Below, one piece after another: positions 10,652 through 42,587 of a stretch of 64,000 nt of DNA (position 1 is its first letter; the number at the start of each line of letters is the position of its first letter). Below the pieces are notes generated by a model that saw only the letters and a program-made list of their open reading frames with translations, searched no databases and was not told the DNA's origin. The translations under genes and the position numbers were made by a program. Origin of the DNA: Psychromonas sp. SA13A (GTDB lineage Bacteria > Pseudomonadota > Gammaproteobacteria > Enterobacterales > Psychromonadaceae); assembly GCF_011378715.1 (NCBI RefSeq), contig NZ_WTKU01000001.1, positions 124,001-188,000 of the forward strand. The letters run 5' to 3'.

Positions 10652-12279
10652 TATTCTGCAGCTCTCCCTTTTTGCGGAAACAGTCCTTTAGGTCGTTTTT
10701 GAATAAACAACACTAAACTGACTAGCACAATAATATTGGCTAATACAGGTCCCATTGATGGCTCTAATATTTTGTTAAATGTTCCCATGGTCATCGCGGC
10801 AACTAGCGTACCCCATAAATTGCCCACACCACCAAATACCACCACTAGGAATGAATCGATGATATAAGCCTGTCCTAAGTTCGGTCCAACATTGGTTAAC
10901 TGACTTAATGCAACACCTGCAACACCCGCGATACCTGAACCTAACCCGAAGGTAATGGCATCTACCCATGAGCTTTTAACACTCAAGGCTCTGGCCATAT
11001 CTCGGTTTTGAGAAACGGCACGAACGTGTAAACCTAATGAAGAGTTTTTCAAAATCATTAACAATGAGAAGAACACCATTAATGCAAATAAGATGATGTA
11101 TAAACGGTTATAGGTAAGCGACAGAATCGGGTTAATCTCTAACGAACCACTCATCCACTGCGGCGCTTCAACTTGGCGATTAAGCGGAGAGAAAACACTA
11201 CGCACTAACTGTTGTAAGATTAAGCTGATACCAAAGGTAGCCAATAAAGTTTCTAACGGACGACCTTTTAAGAAACGGATCACACCACGTTCAATTAACA
11301 CCCCAACAAAACCAGACACAAGGAATGCGGCAGGCACGGCCATTAATAAAGAGTATTCAATTAAATTGGGGAAAGTTTGTTGGATAACATAAGTGGTATA
11401 AGCACCTAGCATCATCATTTCACCGTGCGCCATATTGATCACGCCCATCACACCAAAGGTGATAGCAAGACCAATCGCCGCGAGTAATAATACTGAGCCA
11501 AGGCTTAATCCGAAGAACAGATTTTCCGCTAAGCTAAATACACTTGCTTGCTGCTCAATACTGTCTATTGCATTGCTTAAGACCGTTTTTAACTCTTTTG
11601 TTTCTGCATCAGCTGCATTACTTGGTAACGAACCTAATTGCTTAACTAATGCGTTTTTAACGGTAGGCTCTAGCCGATTAGAGAGTTGTTTAGCAGCAGA
11701 TAATTTCTCCGCTATTGACCCAGTTTGTAATTGTTCAATTAATAAAATGACCGACATTAACTCGCGAGCATCTTCATCTTTCTCTGCTTTAATTAATTTA
11801 TTGACGGCAACCAGGCCGGCTTGGTTAGGATTATCTAATAGCTGTTTCAAAGCCGCGATACGGATATCTGTATCAGTGTTTGTTAAATCTAGGTTGGCTA
11901 ATAAATCACGAATTTGGCCACGTAAACGGTTATTGGTTCTGACTTTCTTAATCGCTGATTTTTTAACTGCTGGCAATGCTTCAGCGCTTAATACATCGGT
12001 TAACTGATATTGCTTTTGTTCATTTTTATAGACTGATACAACACGCTTATTGGTTTTAAGGTAATACAGGTCCCCATCCATCAATGGTTGTAAAATAGCA
12101 CGTACTTGTGGTGCAGACGTCGCCGCGATTTGTTCAATCAATGGCGCCATTTTATTTAATTTGGTATTTGGTAGTTGCTCTACTAACAGCGGAAGAGCTG
12201 ATTGTTGTGTTTCACTAACAGCGGCTGAGGCGTTGAATGACATAACAAAGAAAAGTAACAGGGGAAATAGACGCAACAT
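10651..12279 (-). CDS. urtB: Urea ABC transporter permease UrtB with periplasmic N-terminal domain
   Basis: 542 residues. A signal peptide (about 1-19) leads into a helical, Ala/Leu-rich exported region to about residue 245, which reads like HEAT-type repeats. The LivH-like membrane domain follows, with LAITFGVMGVINMAHGEMMMLGAY and DSFLVVVFGGVGNLWGT. The long N-terminal region is a known feature of proteobacterial UrtB, with unclear role. It lies 100 bp after urtA, and the hairpin in that gap may set the ratio of binding protein to membrane parts. Confidence 0.95.
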   Translation of the reverse strand: MLRLFPLLLFFVMSFNASAAVSETQQSALPLLVEQLPNTKLNKMAPLIEQIAATSAPQVRAILQPLMDGDLYYLKTNKRVVSVYKNEQKQYQLTDVLSAEALPAVKKSAIKKVRTNNRLRGQIRDLLANLDLTNTDTDIRIAALKQLLDNPNQAGLVAVNKLIKAEKDEDARELMSVILLIEQLQTGSIAEKLSAAKQLSNRLEPTVKNALVKQLGSLPSNAADAETKELKTVLSNAIDSIEQQASVFSLAENLFFGLSLGSVLLLAAIGLAITFGVMGVINMAHGEMMMLGAYTTYVIQQTFPNLIEYSLLMAVPAAFLVSGFVGVLIERGVIRFLKGRPLETLLATFGISLILQQLVRSVFSPLNRQVEAPQWMSGSLEINPILSLTYNRLYIILFALMVFFSLLMILKNSSLGLHVRAVSQNRDMARALSVKSSWVDAITFGLGSGIAGVAGVALSQLTNVGPNLGQAYIIDSFLVVVFGGVGNLWGTLVAAMTMGTFNKILEPSMGPVLANIIVLVSLVLFIQKRPKGLFPQKGRAAE

Positions 12280-12314
12280 GGGCTGTTCCTTAATATTGGT
12301 TTTTTAGTTCATAA

Positions 12315-12338
12315 AATGGGAGAACGGTGCCTCCCATT
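12315..12338 (-). promoter_or_regulatory. Intercistronic hairpin between urtA and urtB
   Basis: A perfect 8-bp stem AATGGGAG/CTCCCATT with an 8-nt loop lies in the 100-bp gap, followed on the minus strand by only a short T stretch. Such hairpins after a binding-protein gene typically stabilise its mRNA or partly end transcription, giving excess binding protein. That role is inferred. Confidence 0.6.
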
Positions 12339-12379
12339 AAGTTGTTCTGTACGTTAATTAATGCATTAGAACGTTATGA

Positions 12380-13663
12380 CTAAAACTTTTGACCAGAACA
12401 TTTTGCAGTCGTTACATCAAAGTTGCCGCATTTGATTGGAGCAGTCCAATCAGATACTAGGTTTTTAGAGCTTGGTAGGAAGTCTGACCATGCATCACCA
12501 ATTACGGTATCAGGCGTTTCCCAAACTACTTCAAACTGACCATCTTCTTGGATTTCACCAATTAATACTGGCTTAGATAAATGATGGTTAGCGTTCATCA
12601 CCGCAATACCACCGGTTAAGTTAGGTACAGCAATACCAATCATTGCTTGTTCAACAGCATCAACATCAGTAGTACCGGCTTTCTCAACAGCCTTAACCCA
12701 CATTTTAAAACCAATATAAGTTGCTTCCATTGGATCATTTGTTACACGCTTGTCATCACCAATGTATTTTTTCCATTGTGCAATAAACGCTTCATTTTCT
12801 TCTGTCTCAACACTTTGGAAGTAGTTCCAAGCAGCTAAGTGACCCACTAACGGTTTTGCATCAAAGCCAGACAGTTCTTCTTCACCTACAGAGAAAGCAA
12901 TAACAGGAATATCTTCAGCAGAAATACCTTGGTTACCTAACTCTTTGTAAAATGGAATGTTTGCGTCACCGTTTACTGTAGAAATAACAGCTGTTTGCTT
13001 ACCTTCAGAACCAAAACGTTTCACATCAGCAACAATGTTTTGCCAATCTGAATGACCAAATGGCGTGTAGTTAATCATGATATCTTCAGACTTAACGCCC
13101 TGTGCCATTAAGTATGCTTCTAAGATTTTATTGGTTGTACGTGGGTAAACGTAATCCGTACCTAACAATATAAAACGCTTCGCGCCAATATCATTAATCA
13201 GGTAATCAACCGCTGGAATCGCTTGTTGGTTTGGCGCAGCACCGGTATAGAATACGTTTTTAGATGACTCTTCACCTTCGTACTGAACGGGATAGAACAT
13301 CAAACCGTTAAGCTCTTCAAGCACTGGTAATACTGATTTACGAGAAACCGAAGTCCAACTACCAAAAATAACATCTACTTTATCTTTTGCTAATAACTCA
13401 CGACCTTTCTCTGCAAATAATGGCCAGTTTGACGCAGGGTCAACTACCACAGGCTCAAGTTGTTTACCTAATAAACCGCCCTTTGCATTTTGGTCTTCAA
13501 TCATCATCAACACAGTGTCTTTTAGTGTGGTTTCACTAATCGCCATGGTGCCAGATAAAGAATGTAAAACACCGACTTTGATATTGTCAGCCGCGTAAGC
13601 AAAGTTAGTCATTAACCCCGTTGCAACAATCGAACTTGCAACAATTAGTTTTTTCAGTTTCAT
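12380..13663 (-). CDS. urtA: Urea ABC transporter substrate-binding protein UrtA
   Basis: 427 residues with a signal peptide ending near residue 24 (TNFAYA). The body is the UrtA-type periplasmic binding protein: KVGVLHSLSGTMAISE, NGLMFYPVQYEGEESS and FVWETPDTVIGDAWSDF-like C-terminus. It captures urea for UrtBCDE. GGAAAGGAA lies just before the start. As first gene of the 11-kb minus-strand urea unit it carries the main promoter region, shared with the divergent sensor kinase gene. Confidence 0.96.
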   Translation of the reverse strand: MKLKKLIVASSIVATGLMTNFAYAADNIKVGVLHSLSGTMAISETTLKDTVLMMIEDQNAKGGLLGKQLEPVVVDPASNWPLFAEKGRELLAKDKVDVIFGSWTSVSRKSVLPVLEELNGLMFYPVQYEGEESSKNVFYTGAAPNQQAIPAVDYLINDIGAKRFILLGTDYVYPRTTNKILEAYLMAQGVKSEDIMINYTPFGHSDWQNIVADVKRFGSEGKQTAVISTVNGDANIPFYKELGNQGISAEDIPVIAFSVGEEELSGFDAKPLVGHLAAWNYFQSVETEENEAFIAQWKKYIGDDKRVTNDPMEATYIGFKMWVKAVEKAGTTDVDAVEQAMIGIAVPNLTGGIAVMNANHHLSKPVLIGEIQEDGQFEVVWETPDTVIGDAWSDFLPSSKNLVSDWTAPIKCGNFDVTTAKCSGQKF

Positions 13664-13922: not shown

Positions 13923-16900
13923 ATGCAATCAAACCAAAAAATAATTAAAGCGCGTAGAACTTACAACAAGCTTGTTGCAAATGAGATGATGGAAGACTTT
14001 GCACTGCGTTTTACTGCCAAACGAGCTAGAAAATGGTCACTAAACCGCATCTCTATGACCGCGTTAGGTATTGTTTCATTTTTGGTTTTAGAAGCAATTG
14101 GCGGCGCAATCACGCTGCAATATGGTTTTGAAAATGCCGCATGGGCGATTTTGGCGGTGACATTAGTGGTGTTTTTAACGGGTTTACCGATCAGTTATTA
14201 CGCCGCCAAATATGGCGTTGATATTGACTTACTCAGCCGAGGTGCTGGCTTTGGTTATATTGGCTCCAGCATCGCCTCACTTATCTATGCCTCCTTTACT
14301 TTTATTTTCTTTGCCCTTGAAGCCGCCATTATGGCTATGGCATTAAAGATATTATTTGGCCTGCCCTTACCCGCGGGTTATATCGTTAGTACGCTATTAA
14401 TCATTCCATTAGTGACCCACGGCATCACCTACATCAGCCGCTTTCAAGTATGGACATCTCCTATTTGGGTGGCATTGCAACTGCTGCCGCTGTTCTTTGT
14501 ATTTACCCATAACGATACACAATTCAGCGATTGGGTAAACTTTACCGGTGAAGCAGGCGAATCAGGAGCAACCTTTAATCTCTTATTATTTGGTGGTGCT
14601 TCAGCGGTATTGTTAGCGCTGGTGGCACAAATTGGTGAACAAGTAGATTTTCTACGGTTCTTACCAGAGAAACCTAAAAAAGGTGCTTGGCGTTGGTGGC
14701 TGGCGTTGATTGCCGGTGGCCCAGGTTGGATGGTATTTGGTGCGCTTAAACTTTTTTTAGGATCTTTTTTAGCCTATTTTGCATTAAAACAAGGCATTGC
14801 ACCGGATCTCGCTAGCGACCCTGCACACATGTATCAACTTGCTTATAGCTATGTCTTTGATAACCCTTCTATTAGTGTTTTTGTTGCCTGTAGCTTTGTG
14901 GTGTTATCACAACTCAAAATCAACGTCGCAAATGCTTATGCGGGATCATTAGCATGGTCGAACTTTTTTTCGCGTGTTACCCATAACCACCCGGGCCGCG
15001 TGGTGTGGATGGTATTTAATGTCGCCATTGCACTACTACTAATGGAGCTCGGCATTTACCAAACCATTGCCAGTATGTTGTCCGTGTATTCAGTCATTGT
15101 ATTAGCTTGGTTAAGCTCCGTTGTTGCCGATTTAATCATTAATAAACCATTAGGGCTAAGCCCGCGCCATATCGAGTTCAAACGCTCACACCTTTATGAT
15201 ATTAACCCCGTTGGCGTGGGTTCAATGTTAATTGCATCGGTAGCAGGTTTTACTGCGCATATGGGTATTTATGGTGAAACAGTTGAAGCTTTAGCGTCTT
15301 TCATCGCCTGTTTTTTACCTTTTATTACTGTGCCTTTAATCGGTTGGTTAACTAAAGGGAAATACTATTTAGCGGCAAACCAACAACCTGAAATTAAAAC
15401 CTTCACACAATGTCATATTTGCGAAAATAGCTTTGACCATGAAGACATCACTTTCTGCCCTGCTTATGGCAAAGCTATTTGTTCGCTCTGTTGTAGTTTA
15501 GATGTACGTTGTTCAGATCAATGCCGTCCTAACGCTACGCTTTCACAACAAGCTCATGATTTTTTCACTCGTTTCTTAAGTGCCAAAGTACTAAAAGCAT
15601 TAACCACTCCTTTGATGCAATTCATCGCACTGACATTAGGGTTAAGTTTGATCGGCGCTGCTATTTTAGTCTTAGTCTATCTACAAGTGCCACTGGATGA
15701 TTTACAAGTTAAACAGGTTTTTGCTAGCACTTTAGTTAAGATATTCTTCCTATTAATGATCATTATTGGCATCGTCAGTTGGTTATTTATCCTCGCTCGT
15801 GATGGCAATCAACATGCATTAAAAGAACTACGTTCACAAACTAAAGCCTTGGCCAAAGAGGTCGATGCTCACGAACAAACATCGGAAGCATTACAAAGCG
15901 CAAAAGAAGTTGCAGAATCAGCTAACGAAGCCAAAAGTCGTTACCTTGCAGCTTTGAGTCATGAACTACGTACACCGCTTAATGTGTTATTAGGTTATGC
16001 ACAATTATTGATGCGCGACCAAGAATTACCACCGAAACAGCGCGAAAGTATTGCGATTGTAAGACGCAATGGTGAGCACCTTGCAGACTTAATTGAAAGC
16101 TTATTAGAGGTGTCTAAAATTGAAGCCGGCCGTGTCACTTTACAGCGTGATGAGTTTAATTTAAAAGCGATTTTGCAGCAGCTGGTGGATATGTTTCAAA
16201 TGCAAGCCAGTAAAAAAGGTATTAAATTTCACTATATCGCCAGCGCTAACTTACCTGATTACGTGGCAACCGATAAGCAACGCTTTAGACAAATATTGAT
16301 CAACCTGATCTCTAATGCCATTAAATATACTGAAAAAGGATCGGTAACGTTTAAGGTCACTTATCGCAGCGAAGTCGCCAACTTTAGTATTATAGATACC
16401 GGAGCGGGAATAGCTAAAAGTAACCAAGAACTGATTTTTAAACCCTTTGAACAAATTCGTAATAACCATACTCAATCTATCGGAGGAACAGGTTTAGGGC
16501 TAACTATCTCACGCTCATTAGCGGAATTAATGGGCGGTGAAATAAGTTTAAGTAGTAATGTTGGGCAAGGTTCCACCTTTTACTTCAGGTTAATGTTATT
16601 CAAACTCAACAAAGACCCTAAAGAGCCTGAACTCACCAAATCAGAAGCCGTTGGTTATAATGGTGCTAAGCAAAGCATTTTAGTGGTGGATGATAATAAA
16701 AACCAACGCCAACTGATGTTGCATTTACTCGCGCCGATTGGTTTCAATGTGTTATTAGCGGAACATGCACAACAGGGTTTTGAATTATTGCAGGAAAATG
16801 ATATCGACCTAGTATTAATGGACGTACAAATGCCTGATATTAACGGCTGGCAAATGGTTAAAAGTATGCGTGAACAGCATTATCAAATGCCCGTATTAAT

Positions 16901-30659: not shown

Positions 30660-31292
30660 ATGACATTATTAAGTACAAAACCACGACGTGGTAGACCCCC
30701 AAAAGTATCGCGAGAAAATCATGATACAAAAGCGGAATTAATCCGCAGCGGACTTGAGCAGTTAACAGAGAGTGGATTCGCAGCTTCTGGCATTGACCCT
30801 ATTTTAAAGAGAGTCGGTGTACCAAAGGGCTCTTTTTATCACTACTTTGCTAGTAAAGAAGTATTTGGATTAGCGGTAATCGAAAGCTATGCAAATTATT
30901 TCGCAAATAAACTAGATACCTATTTATTAGATCAGACTTATTCGCCATTAGTGCGCATAAGCCATTTTGTAGAGAACGCAAAATCAGGGCTTGAACGACA
31001 TCATTTTACGCGTGGTTGCTTAGTAGGGAACCTTGGGCAAGAAGTACATTTATTACCTGAAAGTTTTAGACCTATTTTGATAGATATTTTTCTATCTTGG
31101 CAGCAACGTATAAGTGATTGCCTTAAATTGGCACAGGCCAGTGGTGATATATCGAAGTCTGCAGACTGTGAGCAATTAGCTGAATGTTTTTGGATAGGTT
31201 GGGAAGGTGCCGTAAGCCGAACACGTTTAGTGGGAAATGCAACACCACTGGATAACTACTTCCAATATTTTATTGCTAGCTTGCCTCGATAA
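30660..31292 (+). CDS. acuR: TetR-family repressor, AcuR-like
   Basis: 210 residues. An N-terminal arm (RRGRPPKVS) leads to a TetR helix-turn-helix (about 20-65) with IDPILKRVGVPKGSFYHYFASKE. The C-terminal domain matches the AcuR/NemR-type (TRGCLVGNLGQE, FWIGWEGAVSRTRL). It is expected to sense acrylate or related electrophiles and control acuI. A start at 30624 would put the operator inside the coding region, so ATG 30660 is chosen; it has no ribosome site and may be leaderless. The symbol rests on context and resemblance. Confidence 0.85.
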   Translation: MTLLSTKPRRGRPPKVSRENHDTKAELIRSGLEQLTESGFAASGIDPILKRVGVPKGSFYHYFASKEVFGLAVIESYANYFANKLDTYLLDQTYSPLVRISHFVENAKSGLERHHFTRGCLVGNLGQEVHLLPESFRPILIDIFLSWQQRISDCLKLAQASGDISKSADCEQLAECFWIGWEGAVSRTRLVGNATPLDNYFQYFIASLPR

Positions 31293-31440
31293 TAACAGGG
31301 TGAAGGTAGTAAATTAATGGAACAAGTAATTGGTATACAAACACCTGTAAGCAAGCACCTGTAAGTAAGCAGTTATCAGTAAACAGCTTTCAATAAACAG
31401 TTATGGGTAAGCACCTATAACTAAAAAATTTAATCATTAA

Positions 31441-31455
31441 TAGACGATCGGTCTA
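31441..31455. promoter_or_regulatory. TetR-type operator, copy 2, before acuI
   Basis: Exact copy of TAGACGATCGGTCTA, ending right at the acuI ribosome site (AAAGGGGA) and 13 bp before its start codon, so repressor binding would block elongation or initiation. The 150 bp before it carries short AAGCACCTGTAA-like repeats. Confidence 0.8.
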
Positions 31456-31468
31456 AAGGGGAAGATAT

Positions 31469-32452
31469 ATGTTCAAAGGTATTTTAATTGAAAAAGATGA
31501 ACAAGGTTACAGAGCAGCAGTTAAAAGTATTGATGAGAGTGTATTGCCTGAGGGTGATGTCACTATCAAGGTTGCATATAGCACTTTAAACTATAAAGAC
31601 GCTTTAGCAATAACAGGCAAAGGCCCAGTTGTACGTAACTTCCCTATGGTTCCCGGTATTGATTTAGTCGGTACTGTTGAACAAACTGACAGTGATAAAT
31701 TCAAAGTCGGCGATCATGTTTTATTAAATGGTTTTGGTGTTGGTGAAACACATTGTGGTGGATTGGCTGAAACGGCGCGTTTAAAAAGTGAATGGTTAAT
31801 TCCTTTACCTTCAGCTTTCTCACCTCGCCAAGCAATGTCGATTGGTACAGCGGGTTATACTGCCATGTTATGTGTAATTGCTTTAGAGAAACACGGTATC
31901 ACTCCCGATAAAGGAGAGATATTAGTAACAGGCGCCAATGGTGGTGTGGGTAGTTTTGCAATTACCATTTTAGCTAAATTAGGTTACACCGTAGTTGCTT
32001 CAACGGGTCGAGTTGATCAAGCAGAATACCTGAAAAAATTAGGCGCAACAGAGGTCATTGACCGTGCCACATTATCAGAGCCAGGTCGCCCATTAGCGAG
32101 AGAGCGCTGGGCAGCTGCGATTGACTCTACAGGTAGCCATACTTTAGCAAATATATGCGCTAGCTTAAAATATGGTGGCGTTGTTGCTGCCTGTGGTTTA
32201 GCACAGGGCATGGATCTACCAGCAACCGTAATGCCATTTATTTTACGTGGTGTGACTTTGGCAGGTATTGATAGTGTTATGCGTCCAACACAAGACAGAG
32301 TAGAAGCATGGGAGCGCCTTGCTACTATTTTAGAAGCCGATGTATTTGATGATATCGCAAAAGAGATCACCCTAGAGGAAGCAATTGATACAGCAGAGCA
32401 ATTGATTGCAGGCAAAGTACGTGGTCGTGTAGTGGTTAAAGTTGCTGAATAA
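31469..32452 (+). CDS. acuI: Acrylyl-CoA reductase AcuI
   Basis: 327 residues, zinc-free medium-chain dehydrogenase/reductase of the YhdH/AcuI group. It reduces toxic acryloyl-CoA to propionyl-CoA with NADPH, a step of DMSP and 3-hydroxypropionate breakdown. Visible motifs: YSTLNYKDALAITGKGPVVRNFPMVPGIDLVGTV, the nucleotide site TGANGGVGSFAI (about 152-163) and VMRPTQDRVEAW. The ribosome site AAAGGGGA is ideal. No DMSP lyase or acuN/acuK gene is in the window, so here it may act mainly in acrylate detoxification. Confidence 0.93.
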   Translation: MFKGILIEKDEQGYRAAVKSIDESVLPEGDVTIKVAYSTLNYKDALAITGKGPVVRNFPMVPGIDLVGTVEQTDSDKFKVGDHVLLNGFGVGETHCGGLAETARLKSEWLIPLPSAFSPRQAMSIGTAGYTAMLCVIALEKHGITPDKGEILVTGANGGVGSFAITILAKLGYTVVASTGRVDQAEYLKKLGATEVIDRATLSEPGRPLARERWAAAIDSTGSHTLANICASLKYGGVVAACGLAQGMDLPATVMPFILRGVTLAGIDSVMRPTQDRVEAWERLATILEADVFDDIAKEITLEEAIDTAEQLIAGKVRGRVVVKVAE

Positions 32453-32655: not shown

Positions 32656-33435
32656 CTACTGTTTGATGATTTTAAAATTATCCCAAGCTTGAGACGTTGG
32701 CATCACTTCTAAACTATTAATATTAATATGTGCAGGTTGCTCAGCAATCCAGAATATAATGTTAGCAATATCTTCCGGTTGTATCGCGCTAGCACCTTTA
32801 TAGATTTGATCGTATTTTTCTTGATCGCCTTTAAAACGCACTAAGCTAAACTCACTCTCAGCTAACCCCGGCTCTAAGCTTGTTACACGCACTCCCGTCC
32901 CTGCAAAATCACTACGTAAGTTGCGAGAGAATTGTGCGACAAATGCTTTGCTTGCGCCATAAACATGGCTACCTGGATAAGCCCAATTAGCAGCAATACT
33001 AGCTAGATTAATGATGCTTGCAGATGCTTGAGCACGTAAAATAGGTAAAAGGCTGTGTGTGACATTGACTAAACCCGTTACATTAGTATCAATCATTGTA
33101 TGCCAGTCAGATAAAGCAGCTTTATCAGCAGGCTCTGCACCTAAAGCAAGGCCAGCATTATTCACTAATATCCCCACTTGTTTAAAACGCTCTGGTAATT
33201 GCTCAACAAAGCCAATAACCGCTTCACTATCTCGTACATCTAATACCGAATAAAAGACTTCAGTGAATTCAGAGAGTTCTGCACTCAAAGCTTGTAAACG
33301 CTCTTCTCTTCGTCCAGTGATAATTAACGGGTAACCATGTTGAGCAAATTTCTTCGCAGTGGCTAATCCAAACCCAGAAGTCGCGCCTGTAATTAAAACT
33401 ACCGGATGTTGTTGTGCTTGGCTTTGTTCTGTCAT
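32656..33435 (-). CDS. isfD: Short-chain dehydrogenase, probable sulfoacetaldehyde reductase (IsfD/YdfG type)
   Basis: 259 residues. NADP-binding TGATSGFG (about 16-23) and TGRREER, NNAG, catalytic Ser in NLASIA and YGASK (Tyr-x3-Lys). The C-terminus EPGLAESEFSLVRFKGDQ and NINSLEVMPTSQAW matches the YdfG/IsfD branch. IsfD reduces sulfoacetaldehyde from taurine to isethionate; YdfG oxidises serine/3-hydroxypropionate. The AGAGCCAG motif upstream, shared with tpa and tauA, favours IsfD. AAGGA before the ATG at 33435 sets the start. Malonate-semialdehyde reductase, fitting neighbouring acuI, is the alternative. Confidence 0.75.
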   Translation of the reverse strand: MTEQSQAQQHPVVLITGATSGFGLATAKKFAQHGYPLIITGRREERLQALSAELSEFTEVFYSVLDVRDSEAVIGFVEQLPERFKQVGILVNNAGLALGAEPADKAALSDWHTMIDTNVTGLVNVTHSLLPILRAQASASIINLASIAANWAYPGSHVYGASKAFVAQFSRNLRSDFAGTGVRVTSLEPGLAESEFSLVRFKGDQEKYDQIYKGASAIQPEDIANIIFWIAEQPAHININSLEVMPTSQAWDNFKIIKQ

Positions 33436-33837
33436 TTCACATTCCTTTAAAATACGTAATAAAGTCAATACTGTTTGATACTTCTACGAATACTAATAGA
33501 AAACTATTCTCACTTCATGTGTATTTTCATTAATGCTCAGTTTTACTATTTAATTTCTGTTTCAAACAGTATGACGTAGATGACAATAGTAATAGAGCCA
33601 GAACTACATTTTTGTAGTATCAACCTCAGAATCAACTTATAGATCAACTTACTAGAGTAACTTATAAATTAATTTTTGTTACTCAATTTAATCGACTTGA
33701 TCCTAAGAAAACTGAATGTTGGCGCTAACTGAAAATGCCAGTGCACATACACTTTAGGCTAAATTTATTAATACTTTTGATTCGTAAAAATGAAACAAAA
33801 GGTCATGAGTTTATTGAGCGAAAAAGGAATATTTTTA
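33436..33837. other. Intergenic: SDR promoter region
   Basis: 402 bp. Besides the AGAGCCAG element at 33593-33600 it has a CTACA-TTTT-TGTAG palindrome at 33604-33617. No gene is visible. Confidence 0.5.
33591..33602. promoter_or_regulatory. Candidate TauR site before the SDR gene
   Basis: AATAGAGCCAGA is the same core as in the tpa and tauA control regions. It lies about 160 bp before the SDR start. Confidence 0.5.
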
Positions 33838-34273
33838 TGCCATTAGAAGTGATACAAGCAAATACCCTAGATACAAGAATCCAGCCTGATACAAAAAATC
33901 AGCCTAATACACAAAGCAAAGTTAGCCGCCCTCACCCAGCTTTACTCGGTTCATTAACGCCTAATGTATCACCAGAACAGGTGATTAATTTAAGCCAAGC
34001 CCAACTTCTCTACCAAAGTCCGTTGAACAAACCATTACCGATAAAAACTTAAGAAGCCGCATGAATTCACCCTTTAATATCAAAGGTGGAAACTCAGAGC
34101 TTACTGATCAGTTTCTTATCGAAAGCAGGGAACTTGGCATGGTTGGACTACGTACCTTAACTCCATTTGGGGTTGGTGATTATTTAAGAGCAAGCTTATA
34201 CAACGATGTCACTGAGCAACAAGCCACCAGCTTAGCGGTATTTATGCAACGTTTCGCTCACGATAATTCATAA
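33838..34273 (+). pseudogene. Remnant of phosphoserine aminotransferase (SerC-like), frameshifted
   Basis: The right part reads NLRSRMNSPFNI... FLIESRELGM... YLRASLYNDVT...LAVFMQRF, the C-terminal domain of SerC (compare RSRMNVPF, GMRASIYN, LTDFM). Just upstream, in another frame, VINLSQAQLLYQS resembles the preceding SerC helix, so a frameshift near 34015-34022 separates them. The N-terminal two thirds, including the PLP lysine, is missing. The left segment starts at an ATG at 33838 with an AAGGA ribosome site but resembles nothing I know. Not a working enzyme. The two pieces (33838-34052 and 34061-34273) may still be expressed. Confidence 0.65.
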
Positions 34274-34287
34274 AATAAATACCCATT

Positions 34288-34325
34288 ACCAACCTGTCTA
34301 TTTTAATCAGATAGGTTGGTTTTTA
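34288..34325 (+). terminator. Terminator after the SerC remnant
   Basis: A 12-bp stem with one G-U type mismatch (ACCAACCTGTCT with AGATAGGTTGGT at 34309-34320), followed by TTTTT. It fits the end of a former serC-type gene. Confidence 0.8.
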
Positions 34326-34597
34326 GAGCTTCTCCTTTCACTACTCACAATCCTTCCCCTAACTATCCACGCAAAATGTTCAACTACAGGCCCCCAGTTA
34401 ATCACAGCATAATAACTCCACTTACCCTATAGATAATGGATAAATGTAACGACATACTCCGGTTGGCAGAGATAGTAATGAGTTGTGCATGGTGAAAGGT
34501 GAAAGGACTTACAATAGACATCAACAAATGCAGTAGTCTACTTTAATTACTTATTCGCTATTACTTATTCGTTATTAAAAGGAGGAAGTTAAATTTA
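34326..34597. other. Intergenic, no gene seen
   Basis: 272 bp with no reading frame of note. A small duplication TTACTTATTCG(C/T)TATTA occurs at about 34549-34577. Confidence 0.4.
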
Positions 34598-34621
34598 GCA
34601 CCTTGAAGTATCATGGGCATA
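34598..34621. repeat. Solitary end resembling the 47.4-kb MITE
   Basis: The 24 bp match the right terminal repeat of the element at 47432-47759 at about 20 of 24 positions (core CTTGAAGTA-CATGGGCATA). No partner end is seen within the preceding 300 bp. Probably a decayed copy, or chance. Confidence 0.35.
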
Positions 34622-34659
34622 AAAAAACCTCTTTCCGAATGATTATCGAAAAGAGGTTT
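34619..34659 (-). terminator. Terminator of tpa
   Basis: Stem AAAACCTCTTTCCG with CGAAAAGAGGTTTT (34646-34659, one mismatch). On the minus strand the hairpin is followed by a T run. It separates tpa from the isfD-like gene, so the two are not one operon. Confidence 0.85.
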
Positions 34660-34690
34660 TGATAGTAGTATTTATACTTTTATAAAGCAG

Positions 34691-36061
34691 TTATGCATCC
34701 ACTTCTGAAAGCACGCTATCCAATGTTTCAACAATAAAATCCGCTTCTTGCTGCGTTATCGTTAATACAGGACATAAACACAGGGTATTATTTAAGTGTT
34801 TAAAAGAACGATTGGTACGTCCTATAATTAATCCTTTTTGCATACACATCCCAGCAACCTTGATTGCCACCGCTTCTGCAACAGGGGTTTTAGTCTCACG
34901 GTTACTGACTAACTCAAGACCTAATAACAACCCTTTACCACGTACATCACCAATAATAGGATGCTTGGTTTTTAACAATTGCAGTTGTGTTAACAAGTAA
35001 TCACCCATGACTGCGCTATTGGAGATCAAGTCTTCTCGCTCTAATATTGCCAAATTCGCCAATGCAGCGGCAGGACCAGCGGTACAACCTGCGTATGTAC
35101 TTACATCTCGAAAGTAGGCTTCTCGGTCAGCACCGTCAGCAAGAAACTCTTCAAATAAAGCTTCTGTTGTGACCACACATGAAATAGCGGCATAACTTGA
35201 TGCGACACCTTTCGCTAGTGTCACAATATCAGGCTTAATACCGTAATGTTGGTAACCAAACCATTTACCGGTTCTGCCCATGCCACACACAACTTCATCC
35301 ATGTGTATTAATACATTATATTTTTTACAAATCTCCATCACGGCTGGCCAATAACCTTCAGGTGGAGTGATCACGCCTCCGCCAGCAGTAATGGTTTCAA
35401 AAACAACCGCACCGACTGTTTCAGGCCCTTCACGTAGAATCACTTTTTCCAACTCTTTAGCCGCTAGAATTCCGTAATCTTTGACATCGCCAAATTGGCT
35501 TCTGTACTCACAACAATGTGGGAACTCAATAAAACCAGGAACAAATGGACCATAATGTAAACGACGCTCTTCTTGACCCGTTGCACTTAATGTCGCGATG
35601 GTTGTGCCATGATAATCACGCTCACGGTATAAAATTTTATTCTTTTTACCACCGTACTTCTGTTGAGAAATTTGGCGTACTATTTTAAAAGCTTTTTCAT
35701 TGGCTTCTGACCCTGAACTTGCATAATATACTCGGCTCATGCCAGGCATTTTTTGCAGTAATTTCTCAGCAAACTCTGCACTAGGTTCGTTACCTGCGGT
35801 ACTTGCAAAAAAGTTAAGCTTTACCATTTGATCACGAACAGCATCGGCAATTTCGGTACGCCCATAGCCAACATTGACACACCAAACACCACCAGAAGAG
35901 GCATCTAAATAACTATTACCCTTAGCATCCCAAATGCGCGAACCTTCTCCTTTCACCATCACCATTGGGTCTTGTTTTTTTAACACGCTGTGCTGGCTTA
36001 AATGGTGCCAAACATGGTTACGATCTTTTTCAATTATTTCTGCTGTTTTTGAGTCCATCAT
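34691..36061 (-). CDS. tpa: Taurine:pyruvate aminotransferase Tpa
   Basis: 456 residues, class III PLP aminotransferase. It converts taurine and pyruvate to sulfoacetaldehyde and alanine in the cytoplasm. Extended Tpa-like blocks are seen: RNHVWHHLSQH, YLDASSGGVWCVNVGYGR, MPGMSRVYYASSGSEANEKAFK, ILYRERDYHGTT, the cofactor Asp in IHMDEVVCGMGRTG and the PLP lysine in TLAKGVASSYAAISC (about 285). These match characterised Tpa better than beta-alanine or omega-amino acid transaminases. GGGGAATAAC precedes the ATG. It is divergent from the tauE-like gene. Confidence 0.93.
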   Translation of the reverse strand: MMDSKTAEIIEKDRNHVWHHLSQHSVLKKQDPMVMVKGEGSRIWDAKGNSYLDASSGGVWCVNVGYGRTEIADAVRDQMVKLNFFASTAGNEPSAEFAEKLLQKMPGMSRVYYASSGSEANEKAFKIVRQISQQKYGGKKNKILYRERDYHGTTIATLSATGQEERRLHYGPFVPGFIEFPHCCEYRSQFGDVKDYGILAAKELEKVILREGPETVGAVVFETITAGGGVITPPEGYWPAVMEICKKYNVLIHMDEVVCGMGRTGKWFGYQHYGIKPDIVTLAKGVASSYAAISCVVTTEALFEEFLADGADREAYFRDVSTYAGCTAGPAAALANLAILEREDLISNSAVMGDYLLTQLQLLKTKHPIIGDVRGKGLLLGLELVSNRETKTPVAEAVAIKVAGMCMQKGLIIGRTNRSFKHLNNTLCLCPVLTITQQEADFIVETLDSVLSEVDA

Positions 36062-36147
36062 GTTATTCCCCTATGCTAAGTAGTCATTTTCGATGACTCA
36101 GCCTAACTTATAAATTAACCTCCCGATTAGCGCCAGCCACTTTATTC

Positions 36148-36157
36148 GATAGAGCCA
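36148..36157. promoter_or_regulatory. Candidate TauR site, left half, tpa/tauE region
   Basis: GATAGAGCCA, an exact inverted match of the element at 36207-36216. It lies about 90 bp before the tpa start. Confidence 0.6.
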
Positions 36158-36206
36158 GATAGAATTTTTAAGGTGTTATATAAGTGGAACTACAATTGCT
36201 TATCTT

Positions 36207-36216
36207 TGGCTCTATC
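36207..36216. promoter_or_regulatory. Candidate TauR site, right half, tpa/tauE region
   Basis: TGGCTCTATC, the reverse complement of 36148-36157, 49 bp away and about 60 bp before the tauE-like start. The arrangement suits control of both divergent genes. Confidence 0.6.
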
Positions 36217-36274
36217 CGTTACTGGTTATTATTGTGATAGTGTGGCCAATATTAAATAAAACTAAGGAAAATCA

Positions 36275-37012
36275 GTGGAACAAATTTGGTATGTATTGCC
36301 TGTAGTGATGTTCGCGGCTGTGGTGCGAGGATATAGTGGATTTGGTTTTGCTGTGATTGCAGTGGTGGGATTAAACTTCTTTTTTGAGCCACAGCAAAGC
36401 ATTGCCATTGTTTTATCTTTAGATCTAATTTGCAGTCTAAATTTATGGCAACAAGCCGTTAAACAGGCGAATTTTCCCGCCTTAAAAAGGTTAGTGATAG
36501 GATCTATATTCGGTATTCCTATCGGTTACAGCTTTTTGCTTTTAATTCCTGCAGAAACACTAAAGCTCTTAATTTGTTTAGGTGTTTTAACTTTAGCCGC
36601 TTTGCTTTTCTCAAGTTACAGACCTTTTAATGCAGAAAAAAACATCACTAAAGTAGGTTTTGGTTTGGCATCAGGGGCCGGTACTGCCAGCGCATCAATC
36701 GGTGGGCCAATGATTGTGTATTACATGTTATCAAGTAATTTACCAACGAGTAGCCAACGCGCTACGATGATTTTATTTTTTATTGCCAGTGAAGCATTAA
36801 CTGTGATCACCCTTATTAGTGGTGGGCTAGTGGATGACTCGCTACCCCAGGCATTATTAATACTAACTCTACCAACTTTGTTAGCGGTGTATTATGGACA
36901 ATACTTATTTAACAAAAAACCACCTCAATCATTAAAAAGTTTTGCCTTACCTATCATGGTTGTAGTGGCTTTACTTGGCATAGCAAATTCAGCACATACC
37001 TTATTAACATAA
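36275..37012 (+). CDS. TauE/SafE-family sulfonate exporter (IsfE-like)
   Basis: 245 residues, about eight membrane helices, starting with GTG after AAGGAAA. RGYSGFGFAVIAV at the start and SGAGTASASIGGPMIVYYML in the middle are the two glycine-rich family repeats. TauE/SafE proteins (former DUF81) export sulfite, sulfoacetate or, as IsfE, isethionate. Divergent from tpa with shared operator-like repeats, and no sulfite-producing xsc in the window, so isethionate export is the best guess. Confidence 0.85.
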   Translation: MEQIWYVLPVVMFAAVVRGYSGFGFAVIAVVGLNFFFEPQQSIAIVLSLDLICSLNLWQQAVKQANFPALKRLVIGSIFGIPIGYSFLLLIPAETLKLLICLGVLTLAALLFSSYRPFNAEKNITKVGFGLASGAGTASASIGGPMIVYYMLSSNLPTSSQRATMILFFIASEALTVITLISGGLVDDSLPQALLILTLPTLLAVYYGQYLFNKKPPQSLKSFALPIMVVVALLGIANSAHTLLT

Positions 37013-37021
37013 CCTTCAGAG

Positions 37022-37057
37022 AGCCACTTGGTTCTAGTGAACCTAGTGGCTTTATTT
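37022..37057 (+). terminator. Terminator of the tauE-like gene
   Basis: A 13-bp stem with one mismatch (AGCCACTTGGTTC with GAACCTAGTGGCT), then TTTATTT. It begins 10 bp after the stop. Confidence 0.85.
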
Positions 37058-37665
37058 AGCATAAAAATGCAACCCATCCCTTATTATAATACTCTTCAAA
37101 TACTCCCTATATAGCTGTTTTAAATACTATTAACGGCGCACCATGCCCTTTTAAATTTATGAATAAGTCAACCATCAGGATCAACTGCCTTCTTTTGCTA
37201 ATGTGTAGCTTTACTGATGTATAGCGATACAAAACTAACCAGCGCCGTTACCAATCACAAGGTGCATTATCAATCGGCAATGGGCATATAAACCACGATA
37301 CAAAGTCTATATAGGACATAAAGGCGCAGTAGGCTATCAATGTAAGTGGTCACTATGCTTTGTTAATAAACGCTGTTAAGCCCCATTAGAGGTACTATTA
37401 TTAGATGCACTTATGACCTGAATCCAAGAAGAACTAAAAGAACCTCAAGCTAAACAATCCCAGCTTAGTATTAACAGATGCAATTAATGCAATATGCAAT
37501 CTAAAACGAGCGGTATTCGCCATAAGAAATTAACTTTCTTTACTTGTTAAAAGTCAGCAGGTTAAAACTTAGCAAATTAGTAGGTTAAGAATCATGGGAA
37601 TGGCTTATTACTGTAAATTACAGGACAGCAGGAAGGCTTTTTTGTTGCAGTAGTCAGAGGCTAAT

Positions 37666-37692
37666 TAGGTAAGTAGGTAAGTAGGTAAGTAG
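37666..37692. repeat. 8-bp tandem repeat
   Basis: More than three perfect copies of TAGGTAAG in the gene-poor stretch, a likely site of slippage. Confidence 0.85.
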
Positions 37693-37830
37693 TGGAATAA
37701 TTAAACAGTTAAAAACAATTTGATACTTGTCAATAAGCCCTTGTAAATAGAACTTGTAAATAGCTTTAATGCTTAAAAATAAGCACGACTATTGCAATTT
37801 CAGTGCACTTTTCATTTATATTTACCTAAT

Positions 37831-37863
37831 AAAAAAGCCCGCTATTAGAACCTAATAGCGGGC
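37831..37863 (-). terminator. Terminator of the tauABC operon
   Basis: A perfect 12-bp GC-rich stem (37837-37848 with 37852-37863, loop AAC). On the minus strand a T run follows. It lies 28 bp past the tauC stop. Confidence 0.92.
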
Positions 37864-37890
37864 AAATAATGTAGATTTATATCTTATTTT

Positions 37891-38877
37891 TTAATTGTAT
37901 CCTTTCCAAGGGATTAATTTAGATTCTAAATAGCGCATCAATAGGTCAAAACAATAGGCGATAATACCAATTACAATAATGCCGGCGATCACCACATCAG
38001 TCACTAGGAATTCAGAGGCATTTAATACCATAAAGCCAATACCACGTTCTGCTGCGACCATTTCAGCGGCAACTAAGGTTGTCCAACCAAAACCGATAGC
38101 AATACGCATTCCAGTCATAATGTCAGGCATTGCACCTCGAGCGATAACCTGCGTGATCACCTGCCATGGTGTTGCGCCCATTGAGTACGCAACTTGGATT
38201 TGCTCAATACGCACCGACGTCACGCCAGAACGAGCACTGAGTACAATAGGTGATAACATGGCTAAGAAAATAAGCGTCACTTTACTTGACTCATCAATAC
38301 CTAACCAAATAATAATAAGCGGTAGATAAGCTAATGGTGGAAGAGGACGATAGAATTCAATTAAAGGATCAAAAATCCCACGAAAAACACGATTACAACC
38401 AATCGTAATACCTAATGGAATACCGATTAAACAAGCCAGTAAAAAGGCACCAAAGATACGTACTAAACTCGCATTCAAATGTTCAACAAGTGTTGCACCG
38501 GCAAACCCATCAACCGTGATATCAATTAAACGCTGCACCACATCAACAGGTGAAGGTAAAAAGATTGGCTTAATAAATCCACCTTCCGTAGCAATAGCCC
38601 ATATAGCAATAAAGAAAATAGTTGAAAAAACACCAATTAAACGACTATCACCAGCACCGGGTGTACCAAAATATTCACCACTTTGTACGGCACTTGGCGC
38701 AGTCATTTTTTTAATTTTAAGTTGTATTTTATCTAACAATGAAACCGACGCGGCTGCACTTTCACGCTCTTCTTTAGTGTCTACCATTTGCGGCTCTTTA
38801 GCTGCTTTGCTGTTTACTATTTTTTTCTTGGATTCACCTATCGAGCTTGAACCCATTTCTTTAGTCATACTGGTCAT
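37891..38877 (-). CDS. tauC: Taurine ABC transporter permease TauC
   Basis: 328 residues. The membrane domain (about 85-320) has the SsuC/TauC signature EFYRPLPPLAYLPLIIIWLGIDESSK and the EAA loop AYSMGATPWQVITQVIARGAMPDI. An unusually long, charged N-terminal region of about 70 residues precedes it; the family is usually nearer 275. AAGGAACG before the ATG supports this start, although internal Met codons exist. Last gene of tauABC, 9 bp after tauB. Confidence 0.93.
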   Translation of the reverse strand: MTSMTKEMGSSSIGESKKKIVNSKAAKEPQMVDTKEERESAAASVSLLDKIQLKIKKMTAPSAVQSGEYFGTPGAGDSRLIGVFSTIFFIAIWAIATEGGFIKPIFLPSPVDVVQRLIDITVDGFAGATLVEHLNASLVRIFGAFLLACLIGIPLGITIGCNRVFRGIFDPLIEFYRPLPPLAYLPLIIIWLGIDESSKVTLIFLAMLSPIVLSARSGVTSVRIEQIQVAYSMGATPWQVITQVIARGAMPDIMTGMRIAIGFGWTTLVAAEMVAAERGIGFMVLNASEFLVTDVVIAGIIVIGIIAYCFDLLMRYLESKLIPWKGYN

Positions 38878-38886
38878 AATCGTTCC

Positions 38887-39726
38887 TTAGGCTACGGCCA
38901 ATTCATCGCCATGAATAATGGCTAATACTTTTTCACGCATCGCTATAAATTCGGGGCTAGATTTAACTTGTCTTGCATCTCTGCAATCTAAGAATTGTTG
39001 ATTAAAATTTAACTCGAATTGATGTGTTATACGGCCAGGGCGAGGAGACATCACCACTAATCTAGTTGCTAATAACAAGGCTTCATCAACACTATGCGTA
39101 ATAAAAAACATCATCTTGTTGGTTTTACGCCACACATCTAGTAACAACTCTTGTAATGACTCGCGAGTGAGCGCATCCAGTGCACCTAAAGGCTCATCGA
39201 GTAACAACATTTTAGGGTCATTAGTTAACGCACGAGCAATCCCAACACGTTGCTGCATACCACCTGAAAGTTGATAAACCTTATGCTGATGAAAGTCTTC
39301 TAAACCAACCAGTTTTAGATATTCCGCAGCACGTTCGCGACGTAATTTTTTATCCACCCCCTGCAGTTTTAAACCAAACTCAGTATTTTCAATCACATTT
39401 AACCAAGGTAATAATGCGTGTTTTTGAAACACTACTCCGCGGTCAGCATCTGGCCCAGTCACTTCATCGCCAATCTCTTTGCCACATAACACCCTTGGAT
39501 AACCTTTTACTTTACTGTTACCTAAGGTTAGATACCCTTTACTTGGAGAAATAAAACCAGCAATAAGATTTAGCAACGTTGTTTTACCACAACCTGATGC
39601 TCCTAAAGCAACCACTAAGTCACCTTGCTCCATGGTCAGATTTACATCTGATAAAGCTGTCACCGACTCGCCACCCTCTGAGCCGGGATAGACAACTGAG
39701 ACTTCGCAAACTTTCAATGTGTTCAT
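38887..39726 (-). CDS. tauB: Taurine ABC transporter ATPase TauB
   Basis: 279 residues. Walker [13 protein letters not shown] (about 43-54), signature [15 protein letters not shown], Walker [12 protein letters not shown] and the switch His in FITHSVDEA are all present. An insert around 75-90 ([22 protein letters not shown]) is seen between Walker A and the Q-loop, as in TauB-type ATPases. Drives uptake through TauC. Confidence 0.93.
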
Positions 39727-39767
39727 TACAACGCTCCTAAATTAATATTCTTAACGTAATTGATGAG

Positions 39768-40775
39768 TTATAGTTTTGATGCCGCAATTGCGTATTCAGG
39801 ATTAACAAAGACACTATAATCAGGCATTAAATCGTTAATTTTATTTTCTTTTTTCAAAAATTCTGACGTTGATTTTAAAGATTTGGCAGCACCACCATCG
39901 GCACCACAACCCAACCAATTACATGATAATTGTTGCGTGAAAGTAGGGAATTCATAAAGCCCTAATACACTTGCAACTTGGTTAACATCACTGCCAGATA
40001 TTTTTGCGATTGATTTTGCAATGGGATGAGATGCATCAAAGGTATCTTTGTTGCTACGGTATTCTTGATCAAGATCACCGGCTATTTTCAATACCTTAGC
40101 CATAAAATCCGCATTTTCTTTGCCGAATTCTTTATCAACGATCAAGCCATCAAAAGTAGGTTTTCCCCATGAACTTAAGGTTTTAGAGGTAATTAATACA
40201 TCACCATCTTTTTTGATATTGCCTAATACAGGATCCCAGATAAATGCACCGTCAATATCACCTCGTTGCCATGCTGCGTTGATAGTATTAGGTTGCATAT
40301 TCGTTAATTTAACGTCTTTATCCGATAAACCAAATTGTTCCAATGCAAACAGAGCATGGAAATGGGTTGTTGATACAAAAGGAACCGCAATACGCTTACC
40401 TTTAAGATCTGATGGTGCAGTAATACCACTTCCCTTACGTACCACTAACGCCTCCGCATCGGCGATATTTTCTAAAATCCAAACTAATTCAACTTCGATA
40501 CCACGACTCACTGCGGCAGCAATTGGGCTAGAACCTGCAGAAGCAAGGTCAATTGAACCTGATGCCATCGCAGTGATTACTTTGGCACCAGAATCAAAAC
40601 GTTTCCATTTCACCTCATAACCCGTTTCTTTTTCAATTAACTTTTCATTAATCGCATGCTTCCAAGGGTTATTCATACCCATATACCCGATAGTGACATC
40701 CTTTGCGCTTACCGTAGATGCAAATAATAGCGCTGCCATGGCTGTCATTAACTTGGTTGGTTTAGATTTTTTCAT
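39768..40775 (-). CDS. tauA: Taurine-binding periplasmic protein TauA
   Basis: 335 residues with a signal peptide ending near VSA (residue 24). The binding domain has SGSIDLASAGSSPIAAAVSRGI, FVSTTHFHALFALEQF and AFIWDPVL, typical of TauA rather than the alkanesulfonate protein SsuA. First gene of tauABC, divergent from tauR. The AGAGCCAG element lies about 85 bp upstream. Confidence 0.94.
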   Translation of the reverse strand: MKKSKPTKLMTAMAALLFASTVSAKDVTIGYMGMNNPWKHAINEKLIEKETGYEVKWKRFDSGAKVITAMASGSIDLASAGSSPIAAAVSRGIEVELVWILENIADAEALVVRKGSGITAPSDLKGKRIAVPFVSTTHFHALFALEQFGLSDKDVKLTNMQPNTINAAWQRGDIDGAFIWDPVLGNIKKDGDVLITSKTLSSWGKPTFDGLIVDKEFGKENADFMAKVLKIAGDLDQEYRSNKDTFDASHPIAKSIAKISGSDVNQVASVLGLYEFPTFTQQLSCNWLGCGADGGAAKSLKSTSEFLKKENKINDLMPDYSVFVNPEYAIAASKL

Positions 40776-41081
40776 CTTAAAATTCCTTATTTATCTGATG
40801 CTCTGGATGTGACGTAACTTTCGTTATTTAAACTACGCGGTGAAAAAAATAAGATACAGAGCCAGTTTTTTAAATTCATGGTCCACGATTAATCACTTAA
40901 TTTTATAAGCCCATTTTCATAACAACCATTTTCACAACCTGTAATTATCCACAACAGGAGTAAGGTTAAAACACAGGTTGGCTCAAAAATTGCCTTAACA
41001 ATGCATTAACAAACCGAAATACTGTTAAGCACATGAAAACTTATAAACAAAATTCGCTCCAACTTTTAACGCAGGTACCCT
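40776..41081. promoter_or_regulatory. Divergent tauA / tauR control region
   Basis: 306 bp. It holds GATACAGAGCCAG (40853-40865) on the tauA side and TTGGCTC (40978-40984) on the tauR side, so GAGCCA and TGGCTC again face each other, as between tpa and tauE. They are candidate TauR operators. No small gene is visible. Confidence 0.55.
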
Positions 41082-42587
41082 ATGGTTGATTTTTTAATGA
41101 ATATTGAGCTGCATCAAAACAGCACTTATCAACAACAGATCCGTGAAAAATTAGTCGAGCTAATCGAGCAAGATGCCTTTGGTGACAAGGCCTTACCCTC
41201 AGGTAGGAAGATGGCACAACTATTGAAAGTATCCAGAAATACGGTCGTACTTGTGTATGAAAGTTTAGTCGATGAAGGTTTTCTAATTGCGCGTAAACGT
41301 AGTGGATTTTTTGTACACCCTGACTTACTTATGGTGCAACGCCTCCCCAATTCGGTGCAAAAAAACCATTTAGCAGAGACACCAAACCTCAATCAACCGA
41401 ATTGGTCTAAACGCTTACAAAAACACCCTAGCCAGTTATCGACCCTCAATAAAGATGAAAACTGGAGCAAGTATCCCTACCCTTTTATTTATGGCCATAT
41501 TGACGTCAGTGAGTTTCCGCTTTATCAATGGCGAGAATGTTCACGAATAGCAGAAAGCAAAGGCAAATTACATGAATGGGTTGAAGGTTATATCGATATG
41601 GATGATCCACAGTTGGTATCGCAAATTCGCCAACAAATTCTATCAAAACGAGGTATTAGCGCAGATCCCGATGAAATACTAATTACTCTTGGCACACAAA
41701 ATTCTCTGTTTTTATTAACTAGCTTATTAGCAGACAAGTCAGTGACTTTCGGCGTAGAAAATCCCGGTTATGCAAATTTACGACATGTCATTTCACTATG
41801 TGATAGCCCAATGAAGGCGTTGGAAGTTGACCATCAGGGATTAAAAGTAGGTGAACAACTTAATGATTGTGATTATGTCTGTGTGACACCGAGTCACCAA
41901 TACCCATCGACTGTCACCATGAGTATAGAGCGTCGTAAAGCTTTGCTTGAGCAAGCTTCAAAGGATGACTTTATTGTTATTGAAGATGATTATGAAAGTG
42001 AAGTTAACTTTATTGAAAAACCGCTTCCCGCTTTAAAAAGCTATGACCAAGATGGTCGAGTTATTTACACCGGCAGTTTATCCAAGTCGCTAACACCAGG
42101 TATACGTATTGGTTATATGGTGGCGGATAGATCATTGATCACCGAGTTACGTACATTACGCACTTTGCATTATCGCCACCCACCGTCTAACAACCAACGT
42201 ATTACAGCTCTATTTATTAGCCAAGGTTATTACGATAGCCATGTACGCCGTATGCGCCGTACTTATGAAAAAAAATGGTTACAGATGCAACAAGGTATTG
42301 AACAGTATTTATTGAATTGTGAAATCCACTCTACACCCGGTAGCTTCTGTTTCTGGATAGGATTACCTAAAACTATCACTAGCCATAAATTACGTGAAGT
42401 AGCTGCACAACAAGGTATTTTAATTGAATCAGGCGATACTTTATTTATGCAACAAGACGCCCCAAAAAACTATATAAGGTTAGGTTTTTCCGCCATCAAT
42501 ATTGATAAAATTTTACAGGGATTAGCCATACTAGGCGGCCTGATCGCACAATTAGAACGAAAGGCACTTAACGATAAAACCGCTTGA
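41082..42587 (+). CDS. tauR: MocR-family transcriptional regulator TauR
   Basis: 501 residues. An N-terminal GntR winged helix (about 15-85, ALPSGRKMAQLLKVSRNTVVLVYESLVDEGFL) is fused to a class I aminotransferase-like domain (about 135-490) with the PLP lysine in YTGSLSKSLTPGIRIGYM. TauR uses PLP and taurine to activate taurine genes. Divergent position from tauA and the cluster's content support this name over PdxR or GabR. Either ATG 41082 or 41097 may be the start. Confidence 0.9.
   Translation: MVDFLMNIELHQNSTYQQQIREKLVELIEQDAFGDKALPSGRKMAQLLKVSRNTVVLVYESLVDEGFLIARKRSGFFVHPDLLMVQRLPNSVQKNHLAETPNLNQPNWSKRLQKHPSQLSTLNKDENWSKYPYPFIYGHIDVSEFPLYQWRECSRIAESKGKLHEWVEGYIDMDDPQLVSQIRQQILSKRGISADPDEILITLGTQNSLFLLTSLLADKSVTFGVENPGYANLRHVISLCDSPMKALEVDHQGLKVGEQLNDCDYVCVTPSHQYPSTVTMSIERRKALLEQASKDDFIVIEDDYESEVNFIEKPLPALKSYDQDGRVIYTGSLSKSLTPGIRIGYMVADRSLITELRTLRTLHYRHPPSNNQRITALFISQGYYDSHVRRMRRTYEKKWLQMQQGIEQYLLNCEIHSTPGSFCFWIGLPKTITSHKLREVAAQQGILIESGDTLFMQQDAPKNYIRLGFSAINIDKILQGLAILGGLIAQLERKALNDKTA

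Follow-up and report, generated by a model that had tools for sequence, protein, structure and literature searches.

Isethionate-forming clusters that take nitrogen from taurine have been described in Chromohalobacter salexigens and Klebsiella oxytoca TauN1 (PMC6616044), and the SafD route of Neptuniibacter caesariensis yields sulfoacetate when taurine supplies nitrogen (PMC5289682, PMC12625764). The same two exits for sulfoacetaldehyde, reduction to isethionate and oxidation to sulfoacetate, are known from sulfo-transketolase pathways (PMC11659671, PMC12890257), and isfD, xsc and safD have been named together for marine bone metagenome-assembled genomes (MAGs) (PMC7883544). The operator of R. 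capsulatus TauR consists of direct repeats of CTGGACYTAA, and TauR targets in gammaproteobacteria include tauABC, tpa and an amino acid ABC transporter (PMC5320631). Here we describe the taurine locus of the marine bacterium Psychromonas sp. SA13A (genome of 4.57 Mb, 99.98% complete), which lies in a window of 64 kilobases (kb) (the whole stretch of DNA analysed, C1:124001-188000 of genome G000; positions without a prefix refer to this window). Judged from its sequence, the locus probably belongs to a taurine-nitrogen module with two sulfonate outlets, isethionate and sulfoacetate, behind one operator.

The locus resembles the C. salexigens and K. oxytoca TauN1 clusters in encoding TauABC, an aminotransferase, an IsfD-type short-chain dehydrogenase (SDR) and a putative exporter, a gene set with which the sulfonate would be discarded. 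It is unlike them in that isfD is set apart from tpa with an operator of its own, and in that a SafD outlet and a TRAP importer are encoded in trans. With N. caesariensis it shares a SafD-family dehydrogenase beside a TauE/SafE-family protein; unlike in that organism, SafD coexists here with isfD, is encoded approximately 230 kb from tpa and is linked to it by the operator only. Points in common with TauR regulons (PMC5320631) are a MocR regulator, direct-repeat boxes resembling CTGGACYTAA, and tauABC and tpa among the targets, whereas isf and isethionate are absent from the text of that study and no saf genes were noticed there. The sulfo-transketolase pathways differ in that their two exits occur in different organisms and use other enzymes (SqwF; SqwD with SqwKL). 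A search made mostly without the subscription literature found no published account that places both outlets in a single organism and under a single regulator, and absence from print is not claimed.

A first-pass annotation of the window had proposed that taurine is turned into isethionate for excretion, with no xsc to open a sulfite route. Its gene calls (tauABC, tauR, tpa, a TauE/SafE-family exporter and an IsfD/YdfG-type reductase) all correspond to full-length open frames, and the genome search that it called for bears out the absence of xsc: nothing in this genome exceeds the TIGR03457 cut-off of 676.4 bits. The best match, at 330.3 bits, was rejected: it is an acetolactate synthase of the IlvI type, with an IlvH-like frame behind it. 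The Xsc model likewise finds nothing above cut-off in any of 24 Psychromonas genomes, this one included (for 21 of the 24, completeness is 90% or more and contamination 5% or less). As a positive control, it scores above cut-off in 19 of the 48 genomes of a wider tpa-bearing panel, and xsc is present in two pieces in a 20th; this panel comprises 48 of 52 tpa loci, leaving out L053 (same genome as L009) and L056-L058 (30-34% identity). TauD was not found in this genome by a search that detects TauD in E. coli.

The genes of the locus had also been tied together by a shared motif, AGAGCCA, thought to mark a TauR-type operator in three regions. The motif is present at 33594-33600, 36151-36157, 36207-36213 (inverse) and 40858-40864, and GATAGAGCCA at 36148 has its exact inverse at 36207; the site at 40979 reads TTGGCTC and so holds GAGCCA only, which fits the six-base range given for it. 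A further copy, at 37020, lies in a hairpin after the exporter gene. As a stand-alone motif AGAGCCA was rejected as weak, with 10 copies in the window against 5.63 expected, a number reached by 4 of 100 shuffles. It is half of a longer paired operator: two TGG..CTA boxes in direct repeat, 29-30 base pairs (bp) in total, recognized in seven Psychromonas loci aligned by eye. The box period is 22 bp before tpa (36129-36158, minus strand), the exporter gene (36184-36213, plus strand) and isfD (33594-33623, minus strand, one mismatch to the strict pattern given below), and 21 bp before tauA (40858-40886, minus strand, placed by eye and by a loose expression). On the tauR side, the operator is reduced to a single half-box (40979-40985, plus strand), conserved by eye across seven loci.

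The loose expression for the paired box, which was fitted on the cluster's own sites, has five matches in the 64 kb, all in intergenic stretches of this cluster; first-order resamples of three intergenic stretches gave approximately 0.001 matches each. Among seven Psychromonas loci it recovers the exporter box in seven, the tauA (or tauK) box in five and the tpa box in four, and with a second expression the tpa box is recovered in 6/6 relatives. Of 47 named loci, 13 (six Psychromonas, two Marinomonas, two Aliagarivorans, Reinekea, Pseudomonas sp. GOM6 and, weakly, Saccharospirillum) have a match to a looser expression in the 500 bp ahead of tpa, compared with approximately 0.5% of resampled stretches; no match was found before tpa in the Vibrio or Photobacterium loci among the 47. 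The strict pattern, TGGNNCTA-n14-TGGCNCTA, is an exact 22-bp pair and has four exact sites in the whole genome: those before tpa and the exporter gene, and two others, C1:389384 and C1:396096, which were not used in building it. Exact matches in the 24 Psychromonas genomes number 13, with 11 at taurine genes, one inside a frame that is presumably MurQ-like (G014) and one before a DegT-family gene (G021); the chance rate is estimated at roughly 0.1 exact matches per genome, as reckoned from 85 control matches, 24 genomes and about 40 one-mismatch variants. Paired boxes with a period of 21-22 bp stand at six predicted targets: tpa, the exporter gene, isfD, tauA, safE and tauK. The G021 box, which is followed after 63 bp by a DegT-family aminotransferase gene (L106:226-1530), may mark a further target of the regulator.

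Both of the additional sites lie in a stretch (L088) approximately 230 kb from the taurine cluster. C1:389384 is 57 bp before safE (L088:5972-6724), a PF01925 gene (57.4 bits, cut-off 32.6), which is followed directly by safD (L088:6744-8114), whose product scores 826.6 bits with the SafD equivalog model NF047626 (cut-off 700). C1:396096 precedes a TRAP dctP-dctQ-dctM operon and a universal-stress-protein gene, running from L088:12346 down to 8714. Similar TRAP and universal-stress-protein genes are found between tauR and the exporter gene in three other Psychromonas (L009, L010 and L012), at the place held here by tauABC (TauK 51-54%, TauM 77% identity). In Marinomonas flavescens and M. pollencensis, a copy of tpa directly follows safE-safD. 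SafD is present in at least 2/48 panel genomes, namely these two, as judged from up to 27 candidates scored per genome; both are without xsc, and in the panel locus of each, tpa has no isfD nearby.

Since SafD is found in 1/24 Psychromonas genomes, safE-safD was probably acquired horizontally, loss elsewhere being less likely. Tpa of this strain shares 93% identity with its counterpart in Psychromonas arctica DSM 14288, in whose record no SafD was found at E 1e-150, and 83-86% with those of five other Psychromonas; in G003, probably also P. arctica, with a tpa that is likewise 93% identical, the matching region aligns with L088 only from base 15830 on, and safE-safD and the TRAP genes are absent there. 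The nearest SafD proteins among 8000 candidates scored are 96% and, in a Cognaticolwellia MAG, 85% identical. No tRNA is located near safD in L088, and the GC content of the safE-safD block is not conspicuous. A dispersed repeat of about 200-330 bp, found at L088:1956-2282, recurs many times in this genome and in most of the other Psychromonas genomes.

The predicted reductive outlet is inherited together with tpa. The isfD gene (32656-33432, minus strand) encodes a YdfG/IsfD-type SDR, a predicted sulfoacetaldehyde reductase, and tpa (34691-36061, minus strand) a class-III aminotransferase that is the predicted taurine aminotransferase. With E-values of up to 1e-130 for tpa and 1e-60 for isfD, the former is found in 9 and the latter in 10 of the 24 Psychromonas genomes: isfD is present in 9/9 genomes with tpa versus 1/15 without it (Fisher p 7.6e-6). 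In the panel, where isfD was counted at 58% identity or more in the same locus as tpa, 21/48 genomes have isfD, 20/48 have xsc, one has both and eight have neither (p 3.9e-6); both p-values are descriptive, as the genomes are related and some loci end at contig ends. Tpa relatives share their locus with xsc in 16 of the 20 xsc-bearing genomes. Photobacterium rosenbergii (L031) is the one genome of the panel to combine xsc with an isfD-tpa locus, and no xsc was found within the latter.

K. oxytoca IsfD (6ixj) matches the SDR at 294.7 bits. Its sulfonate contacts are Tyr148, Gln244 and, from another subunit, Phe249 (PMC12133307); with these numbers mapped onto 6ixj by an offset of 2 taken from the printed alignment, the SDR of the window keeps all three (Y, Q, F). 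It groups with other tpa-linked SDRs in a 26-row tree, in which K. oxytoca IsfD falls in a neighbouring clade with the Vibrio salinus and Saccharospirillum enzymes. The contact residues are consistent with an IsfD identity without proving it; the uncharacterized P. aeruginosa protein 2nwq shares all of them. Psychromonas sp. RZ22 carries two isfD copies (L008:789-1547 and 11921-12667), of which the one away from tpa has Leu for the Phe contact.

The TauE/SafE-family gene at 36275-37012 (plus strand) encodes the predicted isethionate exporter (PF01925, 100 bits, cut-off 32.6). A 38-row tree places it in a 15-row clade (support 97/98) from Psychromonas, Marinomonas, Vibrio and Aliagarivorans, and all 14 of the other genomes in this clade are xsc-free; twelve Pseudomonas exporters form a separate clade, and xsc is present in 12/12 of their genomes. 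The tree was flagged for long branches, and we use the contents of its clades and leave its deeper order aside. This distribution argues for a cargo other than sulfite. A role as sulfite exporter was considered and is unlikely, none of the 14 other genomes having xsc. The exporter and SafE have no significant BLASTP match to each other.

The taurine importer and the regulator complete the cluster. TauA (39768-40775, minus strand) is a taurine-binding protein above the cut-off of TIGR01729 (342.2 bits, cut-off 304.25); for the taurine-type ABC ATPase (tauB, 38887-39726, minus strand) and permease (tauC, 37891-38877, minus strand), TauB and TauC are the best models, yet their scores are below cut-off (320.5 versus 357 and 283.8 versus 342 bits, respectively). 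The regulator gene (tauR, 41082-42587, plus strand) encodes both a GntR domain (PF00392) and an aminotransferase fold (PF00155) above cut-off, the MocR architecture. Its name, TauR, rests on gene context, and context and operators point to taurine.

Taken together, the isethionate route is likely right but incomplete. It is supported indirectly by the lack of xsc, the co-inheritance of isfD with tpa, the retained contact residues and an exporter clade found only in xsc-free genomes. As an account of a single product it falls short, because SafD and a SafE-type exporter stand behind the same operator approximately 230 kb away, where there is also a second predicted taurine importer. In the scheme that we favour, taurine would enter by TauABC and perhaps also by the TRAP system, and Tpa would transfer its amino group to a keto acid, giving an amino acid and sulfoacetaldehyde. 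Without cleavage by Xsc, the C2 sulfonate would leave the cell intact, along one of two routes or along both: IsfD would reduce sulfoacetaldehyde to isethionate, for export by the TauE/SafE-family protein encoded at 36275, and SafD would oxidize it to sulfoacetate, for export by SafE. The MocR regulator would control all of these units by way of the paired direct-repeat boxes.

SafD uses NAD as its cofactor. IsfD is reported to use NADPH (PMC6616044). A speculative extension, which we consider unlikely, is that the reductase and dehydrogenase, co-expressed under a single regulator, disproportionate sulfoacetaldehyde to isethionate and sulfoacetate, that the ratio of these two products acts as a redox valve through which a facultative anaerobe could draw nitrogen from taurine with or without oxygen, and that the oxidative arm was gained horizontally with a matching operator.

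Several observations weigh against two outlets under taurine control. The best model for Tpa is PRK07678, at 472.7 bits just below its cut-off of 488, and no equivalog model is reached; NCBIfam names the regulator PdxR (362.2 bits, cut-off 320); and the best NCBIfam model for the SDR is YdfG (301.6 bits, below its cut-off of 411). One Psychromonas genome, G006, has isfD without tpa. In addition to the shared residues of 2nwq, the enzyme 3asu, which we take to be E. coli YdfG, has two of the three contact residues, with Leu at the third. The paired box of the TRAP operon lies approximately 250 bp from its gene, and the single occurrence of SafD in the genus leaves its integration unproven. The genome-wide motif scan suggested in the first-pass annotation succeeds with the exact paired box: the 7-mer is weak, and with one mismatch allowed the strict pattern gives seven matches versus four control matches in this genome, and 77 versus 85 for the reversed pattern in the 24 Psychromonas genomes, which is no enrichment.

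The alternative that survives best, although we consider it unlikely, is that isethionate is the only product, IsfD being the working outlet and safE-safD an acquired pair that acts on another substrate or is silent. The rarity of safD in the genus speaks for it, as does the presence of isfD as the outlet common to the nine tpa genomes. Against it stand the SafD score above the equivalog cut-off, the position of safD before tpa in two Marinomonas and the exact operator copy upstream of safE-safD. It would be more surprising, and we think it improbable, if the SDR were an ordinary YdfG-type 3-hydroxy acid dehydrogenase of the acuR-acuI acrylate genes, and the exporter one for sulfite or another anion. 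YdfG is the best-scoring model, and acuI and a tetR-type gene adjoin isfD in 6/6 named Psychromonas loci; however, isfD tracks tpa and is missing (E 1e-60) from 14/24 Psychromonas genomes, a distribution on which a housekeeping YdfG was rejected as unlikely, while in Vibrio, Photobacterium, Endozoicomonas and Reinekea loci it stands near tpa or tauR without an acuI of that type, and there is no xsc to supply sulfite. Least probable of all is that an enzyme beyond those searched for in this genome (isethionate lyase, SsuD or one of another isethionate route) desulfonates sulfoacetaldehyde or isethionate inside the cell and no sulfonate is excreted: neither xsc nor TauD was found, and the module has two exporter-family genes.

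The two-outlet module has some local peculiarities. From low to high coordinates, the gene order is acuR, acuI, isfD (minus strand), a broken SerC-like gene (plus), tpa (minus), the exporter gene (plus), tauC, tauB and tauA (minus) and the MocR regulator gene (plus). The gap between tpa and isfD is 1262 bp here and 170, 171, 209, 497, 559 and 2161 bp in six relatives. A paired box of its own precedes isfD here and in L007 and L008, where the gap is 497-1262 bp, and none is found in the 400 bp before isfD in L010-L012 (gap 170-209 bp); in L009 (gap 2161 bp) there is an opposite-oriented match only, plus a half-box by eye. That isfD lies so far from tpa is a local state: three of the six named relatives have isfD only 170-209 bp after tpa, with no paired box in the 400 bp before it.

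The first-pass annotation had described isfD as split off with its own promoter and terminator. The separation is real, with a 1262-bp gap and a paired box; a candidate terminator after isfD is a hairpin followed by T-rich sequence, which a short-loop scan did not list and whose folded stretch (z -3.2) ends before the T tract; and for the promoter a scan was uninformative, with 21 promoter-like matches versus 27.9 expected, not above chance. A strong terminator hairpin ends tpa (z -5.4).

In the gap lies the remnant of a SerC-like (phosphoserine aminotransferase family) gene (33933-34270, plus strand), which aligns in different frames with residues 12-57 and 321-399 of a 399-amino-acid protein of L009. 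It is preceded by a paired box (33697-33726, plus strand, one mismatch to the strict pattern) that was not seen upstream of isfD in the P. arctica locus L007. Intact copies are found in L009 (11864-13063), L105 (5' end off the locus), L017, L019, L022 and L054, and such relatives occupy taurine loci of Psychromonas and four Vibrionaceae. The acuR-acuI acrylate genes adjoin isfD on the other side (30660-32452).

Which organisms can use taurine sulfur next depends on the form in which bacteria return it: sulfite, isethionate or sulfoacetate. These fates hardly overlap in the 48 tpa-bearing genomes: xsc together with isfD near tpa occurs in 1/48, and the safD genomes, at least 2/48, have neither xsc nor isfD near tpa. 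Psychromonas sp. SA13A, which appears to pair two sulfonate-sparing exits behind one operator, would offer a clean test of how that fate is chosen, and searching with the paired box is a way to bring together taurine-regulon members that lie scattered over a genome.

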